NCBI RefSeq assembly: GCF_005435165.1
Contig: NZ_SGUC01000013.1
Coordinates: forward strand, 1-64,000
Reading direction: 5' to 3'
From: Halorubrum sp. GN11_10-6_MGM
GTDB lineage: Archaea > Halobacteriota > Halobacteria > Halobacteriales > Haloferacaceae
Length of the DNA stretch: 64,000 nt
Under the pieces are notes generated by a model. It was not told the origin of the DNA. It was given only the letters and a program-made list of their open reading frames with translations, and ran no database searches. Shown here one piece after another: positions 1-62,550 of this stretch (its first letter is position 1; each line of letters opens with the position of its first letter). A program made the translations under genes and the position numbers.

Positions 1-126
1 CCCCGCACGGCCCCGCACCTCACGCCTCCCCAGCCTCGTCGGCGGCTCCCGTCGGTCGCCGCCGACTCCCTCGCGTGGTGCTGACTCGCGGCCGCCCGGG
101 GCGGCCGCTCGCAGGCACGCGCCACC
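1..126 (-). repeat. Structured 3'-end repeat, copy A (truncated by window edge)
   Basis: This is the gene-proximal part of a non-coding element seen again at 45268-45536 and 51574-51844. Read on the minus strand it begins GGTGGCGCGTGCCTGCGAG and forms a first hairpin with stem GCGGCCGCC/GGCGGCCGC and a second with stem GTCGGCGGC/GCCGCCGAC, followed by the block shared by all copies, CGAGGCTGGGGAGGCGTGAG. The third hairpin seen in the full copies would lie left of the window. The element starts about 14 nt past the stop codon of the minus-strand PUA gene, after a T-tract. I see no coding capacity in it. Confidence 0.8.
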
Positions 127-130
127 GCAG

Positions 131-44760: not shown

Positions 44761-44782
44761 GTTGGTGTCGTGTACCCGGAAG

Positions 44783-45091
44783 TGGACTAGGTCGGGCGGT
44801 TAGGCCCCGCTCGTCACCCGTGAGGCAGTCTTCAGCGGGGACCGAACAGCGGGCACGTCCGGTCAGACCGGCACGGGCCCCGAGAGCCAACGTAGAAACC
44901 TCGTCCGCCGGGGACAGCGGTCCGTGGCGCCCGCTCGCAGGAGCGGTCCGTCGCGGTTCGTCGACGACACCGGGTCAGGCGCGGAAGCGAGCAGCCCACC
45001 GTCGAACGCCCGTCGCTCGTCGGGTCGCGGGGTGGAGGAGGCAATCGGGATACCCCGTGACGGAACGCCGGGCTACCCCGCCTGTCCGCCA
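44783..45091 (+). ncRNA. ffs: Signal recognition particle (7S) RNA
   Basis: The apical S-domain signature is clear at about 44971-45000: GGGTCAGGCGCGGAAGCGAG, with the GGAA tetraloop of helix 8 and the asymmetric loop where SRP54 binds. The 5' part, GTCGGGCGGTTAGGCCCCGC, then GCAGTCTTCAGCGGGG, matches helices 2-4 of archaeal SRP RNA. GGGCGG near the 5' end can pair with CCGCCT near the 3' end (helix 1). The length, about 309 nt, fits the roughly 300 nt of haloarchaeal 7S RNA. Ends are approximate. The SRP19 gene for its protein partner is at 27205. Confidence 0.88.
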
Positions 45092-45162: not shown

Positions 45163-45260
45163 CAAACGTTTGTTTATAAATGGATACCGTCTGCTCGGCG
45201 ACTTGTTTATAAACAACCGACACCGCCGCCGAAGCCCCAGTCGCTCGTTTATGAGCGCCT
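45163..45260. repeat. Palindromes and partial repeat-end duplications downstream of SRP RNA
   Basis: In this AT-rich patch lie CAAACGTTTG (45163-45172), a perfect 14-bp palindrome TTGTTTATAAACAA (45203-45216) and a relative TCGTTTATGAGCG (45246-45258). Also GAAGCCCCAG occurs at 45231-45240 and again at 45288-45297 inside the structured repeat, each preceded by a TTTATA/TTTATG motif 20-45 bp upstream, so the repeat's outer end seems partly duplicated here. No gene seen. Confidence 0.5.
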
Positions 45261-45267
45261 CCTGCCG

Positions 45268-45536
45268 GATCGACGGCGAACAGCTCCGAAGCCCCAGCCG
45301 CGAGGACGGCGCACGCTCGTTGTGCTCCTCACTCGGTCGCTCACTCCGTTCGCTCCCTCGCTCCGGTGCTTACGTCGCCCGCGCCGTCCTCGCGACTGCC
45401 CCTTCGATTCCCGCCCGACCGCACAGCGACCGCGCCCCACGCCTCCCCAGCCTCGTCGGCGGCTCCCGACGGTCGCCGCCGACTCCCTCGCGCGGTGCTC
45501 CTCGGCCGCAGTGCGGCCTCGGAGGCACGCGCCACC
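45268..45536 (-). repeat. Structured 3'-end repeat, copy B (full)
   Basis: A 269-bp non-coding element, matching copy C (51574-51844) along its whole length on the opposite strand. Read on the minus strand: GGTGGCGCGTGCC, hairpin 1 (GGCCGC/GCGGCC, loop ACT), GCGAGGGAGTC, hairpin 2 (GTCGGCGGC/GCCGCCGAC), CGAGGCTGGGGAGGCGTG, then a long hairpin 3 whose stem CAGTCGCGAGGACGGCGC pairs with GCGCCGTCCTCGCGGCTG (one T-G pair), then GGGGCTTCGG and TTCGCCGTCGATC. Hairpin 3 encloses purine-rich GAGCGAACGGAGTGAGCGA. It begins 27 nt past the GNAT gene stop, after a GCTTTTCCC tract. Confidence 0.85.
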
Positions 45537-45563
45537 GCGACAGGGAAAAGCCGTTCTCGCTTC

Positions 45564-46148
45564 TCAGCGACCGGTGTCGTACTTATACGTCGCCGAGTCC
45601 GGGTCGATCCCGAAGTCCTCCGCGGACTCCTCCGGCTCGTCCTCGCCGGTCGGCTCGGCGTCTTTGAACGCCTTCCGGAGGCGACTCGGCATCTCGAACG
45701 CGTCGACGGCGAGTGCGAGGCCGACGACGCCGCCGCCGAGGAACTCCCGCTTTTCGGAGAGTCGGTCGGAGAGCGCGGGCGGGAGGTCGTCGGTGTCGAC
45801 GCGTTCGAAGCCGAACTGCGTCAGGTAGTCGGGCTGGTCGGTGAGCACGTACACCGTCTCGAACCCGTCCGCGGCCGCGGTGTCGACGAGGCGCTCGACG
45901 ACGTGCGCCCCGACTCCGCGGTCGCGCCACTCGGGGAGCACGCCGATGCCGGTGAGCTCGATCCGGTTCGCCTCGTCCTCGTCGCCGCGGTGGAGGCGAA
46001 GCCGGCCGAACCCCGCCCGGTCGCCGGACTCCTCGTCGACCGCGATCACGTAGTCCCGCGACCGGAAGGCGACGTCGTCGAGCCCCAGCTGCTCGATCGC
46101 GTCCAACAACCACGCCTCGTCACGGTTTTTGGCGTCGCGGACGTACAT
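45564..46148 (-). CDS. GNAT-family N-acetyltransferase
   Basis: The 194 residues begin with a GNAT domain (about 1-130). The acetyl-CoA motif is IGVLPEWRDRGVGAHVVERL, with R/QxxGxG as RDRGVG, and the fold continues into VYVLTDQPDYLTQFGFERVD, as in the ArgA-like group. The C-terminal 60 residues (SRLRKAFKDAEPTGEDEPEE) are an acidic tail with no known domain. Substrate unknown. The gene ends at the structured repeat, which follows in its sense direction. Confidence 0.8.
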   Translation of the reverse strand: MYVRDAKNRDEAWLLDAIEQLGLDDVAFRSRDYVIAVDEESGDRAGFGRLRLHRGDEDEANRIELTGIGVLPEWRDRGVGAHVVERLVDTAAADGFETVYVLTDQPDYLTQFGFERVDTDDLPPALSDRLSEKREFLGGGVVGLALAVDAFEMPSRLRKAFKDAEPTGEDEPEESAEDFGIDPDSATYKYDTGR

Positions 46149-51537: not shown

Positions 51538-51573
51538 GGCGAGAGCTGCGGCGCTTTTGACTAGCTGGTGCGC

Positions 51574-51844
51574 GGTGGCGCGTGCCTGTGAGCGGTCGCC
51601 GCAGGCGACCGCGAACAGCACCGCGCGAGGGAGTCGCTGGCTCCCGGAGCGAAGCGGAGGGTGCCAGCGACGAGGCTGGGGAGGCGTGAGGTGTGGTGTT
51701 GCGCGGTGCGGGGCGGGGCTCGAAGGGGCAGCCGCGAGGGCGAAGCACGCCGCAGCAAGCACCGCAGCGAGCGAAGCGAGCGAGGAGCACAGCAAGGCGC
51801 GCGAGTCCTCGCGGCTGGGGCTTCGGTGGTGTTCGCCGTCGATC
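51574..51844 (+). repeat. Structured 3'-end repeat, copy C (full)
   Basis: A 271-bp element starting 36 nt after the stop of the GCS2-like gene and after the tract GCGCTTTTGAC. Order as in copy B, now on the plus strand: GGTGGCGCGTGCC, hairpin 1 (GCGGTCGCC/GGCGACCGC, loop GCA), GCGAGGGAGTCG, hairpin 2 (GTCGCTGGC/GCCAGCGAC), CGAGGCTGGGGAGGCGTGAG, hairpin 3 (CAGCCGCGAGG/CCTCGCGGCTG) around purine-rich sequence, then GGGGCTTCGG and GTTCGCCGTCGATC. Hairpins 1 and 2 differ from copies A and B at paired positions with both partners changed. The remaining bases to 52007 hold a further GC hairpin near 51870-51890 and the cdd promoter. Confidence 0.85.
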
Positions 51845-62427: not shown

Positions 62428-62436
62428 GGTCGGTGC

Positions 62437-62550
62437 GGCGGCGGGTGCCTGCGAGTGGTCGCCCTCGGCGACCGCGAAGTCGTCGGGCTTCGGCCGACTG
62501 TCAACGAATCTCGGATTCTCGCGTCCGGGGCTGAGCGTTCGCCGGGCACC
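62437..62550 (+). repeat. Structured 3'-end repeat, degenerate copy D
   Basis: Starting about 10 nt after the PHP gene stop, GGCGGGTGCCTGCGAG leads into hairpin 1 with stem GTGGTCGCC/GGCGACCGC (loop CTC, one T-G pair), like copies A and C. The next sections differ: AGTCG/CGACT, then GAATC-TCG-GATTC, then CCGGGGCTGAGCGTTCGCC, which recalls the CTGGGGCTTCGG...TTCGCC end of copies B and C. Hairpins 2 and 3 are lost. Same orientation to the upstream gene as the other copies. Confidence 0.5.

Follow-up and report, generated by a model that had tools for sequence, protein, structure and literature searches.

Intergenic repeats of about 270 bp in Halorubrum keep a common fold through compensatory base changes

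Three similar stretches, copies A, B and C of one element, lie in the 64,000-nucleotide stretch of DNA from Halorubrum sp. GN11_10-6_MGM that was analysed here (contig NZ_SGUC01000013.1, positions 1 to 64,000; the window). Their hairpins differ by base changes on both arms, and this raises the question of whether a folded molecule is maintained by selection at these places, or whether gene conversion or mobile hairpins could give a similar pattern.

Copies in the window and the common fold

The three copies had been placed correctly in a preliminary description of the window and their end-to-end alignment was reproduced, with the element starting two bases further 5' in each copy (Table 1). 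Copy A is truncated by the end of the assembly contig. The hairpin sequences quoted for copies A and C, and with them the double changes in hairpins 1 and 2, were confirmed. Hairpin 1 of copy B, which the description did not cover, has another sequence (GGCCGC..GCGGCC) and folds nonetheless. All three proposed hairpins were borne out, the third being a long helix tipped by a ladder of 2-bp steps with tandem G.A mismatches. Two covariance models, one for the 5' half (R1) and one for the 3' half (R2), were built from 40 copies. The site of copy B lies between a CDS (45564-46148) and an archaeal SRP RNA gene at 44780-45091 (+), which is convergent with copy B and was the sole Rfam match in the window.

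Table 1. Copies of the element in the window and structural parts of copy C. R1 and R2 are the covariance models for the 5' and 3' halves.
Feature	Position	Strand	Basis
Copy C, full length	51572..51844	+	R1 match 51572-51694, R2 match 51713-51826; alignment
Copy C, helix P1: outer GCGCGTGC/GCACCGCGC, TGT/ACA, tandem GA/GA, hairpin GCGGTCGCC/GGCGACCGC	51578..51626	+	sequence, covariation
Copy C, helix P2: GTCGCTGGC/GCCAGCGAC, GA/GA on flanks	51633..51671	+	sequence, covariation
Copy C, conserved unpaired block GAGGCTGGGGAGGCGTGAGG	51672..51691	+	near-invariant columns
Copy C, domain P3/P4: CGAAG-GGG-CAGCCGCGAGG/CCTCGCGGCTG-GGG-CTTCG, 2-bp steps with tandem GA forming a ladder at the tip	51720..51826	+	covariation
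Copy B, full length	45268..45538	-	R1 and R2 matches; orthologous-site comparison
Short repeat after copy B: AT-rich box and second CGACTGGGGCTTCGG (3' unit, 57-bp period in many copies)	45229..45253	-	sequence; TTATAA peaks at +13 and +70
Copy A, 5' part	1..128	-	R1 match 15-128
Degenerate copy remnant, P1 hairpin only, 46 bases	62434..62479	+	fourth in the window; a relative has a 5' half at the site

In the family as a whole, P1 consists of an outer helix (GCGCGTGC/GCACGCGC), a 3-bp step that occurs as TGC/GCA, TCC/GGA or TGT/ACA, a tandem GA/GA and then a hairpin whose alleles are unrelated to one another (CGGCCGCC..GGCGGCCG or GGCCGC..GCGGCC). Many alleles occur at the P2 hairpin, after which comes a nearly invariant, G-rich unpaired block (GAGGCTGGGGAGGCGTGAGG), in which the change rate was 0.044 compared with 0.112 for the full set of columns not in the checked pairs. 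P3 pairs CGAAG-GGG-CAGTCGCGAGG with CCTCGCGACTG-GGG-CTTCG, and at its tip 2-bp steps alternate with tandem G.A.

The conserved block (e.g. window 51672-51691) contains GGAGGYG, a complement of the 16S rRNA 3' end in haloarchaea, and has no reading frame attached. A switch in which this block pairs with P1 or P4 was hinted at by the sequence and by single folds but received no support from covariation, and identity with a Kink-turn was ruled out as the G.A steps come without a 3-nt bulge. Two kinds of rearranged copies were also observed. In one copy of the same genome (C119:7739-7988) the stem of P3 has been inverted in situ, between the GGGG blocks, with pairing kept. A separate module of about 45 bp with two hairpins (GCCGGC..GCCGGCTGCCAGAGAATCTNCGATTCTCGCTG) interrupts several other copies at varying points (L011, L107, L122, C127:16996) and also occurs outside copies of the element.

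Distribution and covariation

A DNA search of the genome from which the window was taken (G000), with copy C and with copy B as queries, found about 50 further places. The covariance-model search that the preliminary description had proposed revealed members of the family throughout the genome as well as in related genera: R1 gave 121 and R2 104 matches in G000, which were joined into about 134 copies, 85 of them with both halves and with a gap between the halves of mostly 9-25 bases. At least 150 copies were found in the complete genome of a relative (G022). The element was present in 50 of 52 Halorubrum genomes by DNA search and all 52 had matches to R1, which also detected related forms in 84 of the 170 genomes searched across the taxonomic family, representing 14 of 28 genera; nearly all matches of a sequence-pattern scan were in Halorubrum, with one in Halobellus. 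When six other genera were sampled the 5' domain recurred with alleles of its own, and the P3 domain with a GGG/GGG loop was present in most of the copies shown from two of them (G072 and G095) and was not seen in the remaining four. Adjacent copies arranged head to head were noted in other genera (L440/L446 in G131, and G166:C1:3651920-3652139).

The 5' half contained 107 double-change cells compared with a shuffled mean of 38, and the 3' half 176 compared with 52; in neither half did any of 500 shuffles reach the observed value. Covariation, which the preliminary description had set as a test, far exceeded both shuffles and slid structures. Among 225 distinct full-length copies the strongest covarying columns were mainly in the P1, P2 and P3/P4 helices. 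When each copy was compared with its nearest-neighbour copy, 1224 of the 9061 pairs counted had changed: in 735 both sides had changed and pairing was kept, where about 109 double changes would be expected if changes were independent, in 301 one side had changed and pairing was kept, and in 188 pairing was broken. These double changes are not all independent compensations, since exchange of whole hairpins between copies contributes to them. In 119 of the 225 copies none of the 43 checked pairs was broken, and nearest neighbours were on average 88.6% identical. An isolated pair also covaried (columns 174-209; C-G in 179 and G-C in 36 copies), and at one G.A step the covariation was non-canonical (A.G to C.A, columns 167-216). 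Nearly every copy keeps an RNA-like fold by compensatory change while its letters change. The fold is kept in most copies even though no copy is a recent duplicate, and this speaks for selection acting on each of them; frequent conversion could partly mimic such selection on each copy.

Could the double changes be a mutational artefact, in which the two arms of a stem correct each other by template switching and conversion swaps whole hairpins, with no selection on structure? P2 alleles are shared by copies and are swapped whole between them, and the in-place stem inversion on C119 and the inserted hairpins would fit such processes. Correction between arms should however remove G.A mismatches as well, yet these persist between 2-bp steps that covary, and it accounts neither for the covariation of isolated pairs (columns 174-209) nor for the near-invariance of the unpaired block or the excess of G-T pairs in the helices (see below). 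We regard this explanation as highly improbable.

The folded strand and its surroundings

Within the helices 309 G-T and 81 A-C combinations were counted (four P1 rows were off by one column, which added no pairs), and helix P2 by itself showed no G-T excess (10 G-T and 16 A-C). The sense strand had a lower MFE than the antisense strand in all of the 225 copies, and the MFE z-scores were -3.0 for copy C and -4.6 for copy B. The G-T excess and the better folding of the sense strand indicate that the strand as read here is the folded one, most likely as RNA. This strand asymmetry, together with the conserved ladders of tandem G.A, makes a double-stranded palindrome less likely than a single strand that folds.

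Strand asymmetry alone does not separate RNA from single-stranded DNA, as it suits any single strand, and G-T mismatches and hairpins with GNA caps and G.A steps are likewise stable in DNA. The fold might thus form in single-stranded replication or transfer intermediates and be recognised by an HUH/Y1-type enzyme, as REP is by RAYT. Three domains, long conserved unpaired blocks and the A.G to C.A covariation resemble RNA tertiary structure more, and because of the G.A ladders and the non-canonical covariation we consider RNA the more likely, and the DNA alternative improbable. Covariation beyond background and strand asymmetry, which together characterise structured RNA families, were both found. 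The suggestion made from the window that selection acts on a single-stranded structure, most naturally an RNA, was thus supported by the reach of the covariance models, the covariation and the lack of an Rfam match.

The copies were intergenic, and their orientation relative to neighbouring genes (as called with a home-made gene caller) was mixed, with few copies between divergent genes: the strands of the upstream and downstream genes relative to the element were -/- in 37 cases, +/- in 27, +/+ in 24 and -/+ in 11. TTATAA occurred between -28 and -5 in 42% of 318 upstream regions compared with 1.6% in a control further upstream, and this AT-rich box sits about 14 bp before the element. Downstream, TTATAA peaked at +13 and +70, with a unit of 57 bp repeating the 3' end. 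The AT box was considered as part of a promoter of the element's own and rejected, as it is nearer to the start than the usual archaeal TATA-to-start distance; a promoter was not evident since the box is too close for a transcript that would include the 5' strand of P1. The boxes near -14 and +13 are themselves palindromic, and a role as inverted terminal repeats seems less likely since the flanking bases fit direct repeats better.

Two further observations concern the surroundings of the copies. Within or against copies at three places in G000 (C60:74072, C70:72573 and C129:77) lies a stretch that resembles an insertion sequence and has an ORF starting MPGPSKDHLEHLSEEELDEAID; the element may be a target of this stretch. 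Many contigs of the same genome end inside or beside copies, which suggests that the element breaks assemblies, and it matters for genome assembly because copies coincide with many contig breaks.

Positions, homogenisation and related systems

At the site of copy B a copy was present in at least 16 species, with differing helix sequences and with some copies shortened. Several species also carry a copy at the site of copy C, where in at least six others no more than 20-40 bp is present. Of 30 copies of G022, 23 had an orthologous site in G000 that carried the element in the same orientation, the 30 being the best-scoring copies and therefore a biased sample and some of the 23 sites being matched by one flank only. 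Mean identity was 86.4% between orthologous elements and 86.3% between paralogues. One P2 allele was found in 18 of 29 copies of G022 and in 7 of 69 in G000, and the alleles of P1, P3 and P4 occurred in all combinations. We read this as stable positions combined with concerted evolution, which may proceed by gene conversion or replacement. The reservations first voiced about gene conversion and mobile hairpins were apt, given the mosaic copies, the concerted evolution and some inserted hairpins. As several orthologous sites are empty or decayed, single copies are dispensable.

These data also bear on the possibility that the repeats are a non-autonomous mobile element, MITE- or SINE-like, whose fold is recognised in trans by a transposase, a reverse transcriptase or similar, so that selection acts on mobility and not on a service to the host. 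Compatible with it are the high copy number, the mixed orientation to genes with few copies between divergent ones, the conserved ends with AT-rich boxes near both and the 57-bp 3' units, as well as the differences in presence between species and the genus-specific subfamilies. However, no pair of copies in G000 was more than 91.6% identical, so that no recent transposition is visible, and the 23 of 30 sites in common with G022 likewise count against such an element. The empty sites (the window compared with G042 and G045, and the site of copy C) differed by more than the element and gave no clean target duplication, and no match to the element was found in phage records and viral contigs. A search of G000 for an autonomous copy with an internal gene found no halves split around a gene on the same strand with a gap of 160-2500 bp. 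Truncation at the 5' end as in retroelements was rejected since 36 copies had the 5' half alone and 13 the 3' half alone, with many of either kind lying at contig ends. Overall, this explanation is possible but on balance unlikely.

A folded RNA under selection copy by copy is the best reading of these results. Put more fully, we hold with about even confidence that the element is an ancient, BIME-like interspersed mosaic repeat, found in the haloarchaeal family to which Halorubrum belongs, in which the selected object is a folded single strand of about 270 nt, most likely RNA. The copies would date from a distant phase of non-autonomous mobility and would now exchange sequence mainly by gene conversion. 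They may be transcribed by read-through, from genes whose ends lie about 40 bp upstream, or from other promoters. The folded RNA would act at the place of its synthesis, probably bound by protein at the ends of transcripts, with a putative role in stability, 3'-end formation or insulation of neighbours. A more far-reaching interpretation, which we put forward tentatively, is an undescribed class of archaeal RNA with well over 100 loci per genome, each selected for one elaborate fold and evolving in concert at stable positions. Together these would make up an architectural or regulatory system based on RNA and spanning the genome. Should the fold act as RNA, the same RNA module would be present in many intergenic regions across an archaeal genus, and this would affect the view of 3' ends, read-through and intergenic annotation in haloarchaea. 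With its stable positions and homogenised sequence, the family also lends itself unusually well to measuring archaeal gene conversion.

Like the structured RNAs of Rfam the element has covarying helices and conserved loops. The comparison with Rfam (4227 families) that had been called for gave no catalogued family in either gathering or E-value mode: no family reached the gathering threshold for the element, sub-threshold matches were weak and only SRP RNA and tRNAs were found nearby. No description of the element was found in text searches of open-access papers, and its novelty is provisional because the searches span open-access papers only. The element shares with MITEs that it is short, non-coding and dispersed and differs from them in its conserved single-strand fold and the lack of recent copies, and no clear terminal inverted repeat or target duplication was seen. 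The term MITE occurs in a genome paper on Haloquadratum walsbyi (PMC3119063). Halovirus HF2, a virus of Halorubrum hosts, carries class I intergenic repeats of 56-58 bp with an AT-rich box, which are promoters with other conserved motifs (CTTTAAGT) (PMC8707807). These repeats are comparable in size to the 57-bp 3' unit of the element, and no phage record matches the element itself. The REP/BIME sequences of enterobacteria occur in more than 100 intergenic copies as mosaics of hairpins, often near gene ends and at positions common to relatives. On the basis of general knowledge of those repeats, the element agrees with them in copy number, mosaic structure, tendency towards gene ends and common positions, and many intergenic hairpin repeats in mosaic arrangement were indeed found here. 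It differs from REP/BIME in being about 270 bp long and archaeal, and in its three-domain fold with long conserved unpaired blocks.
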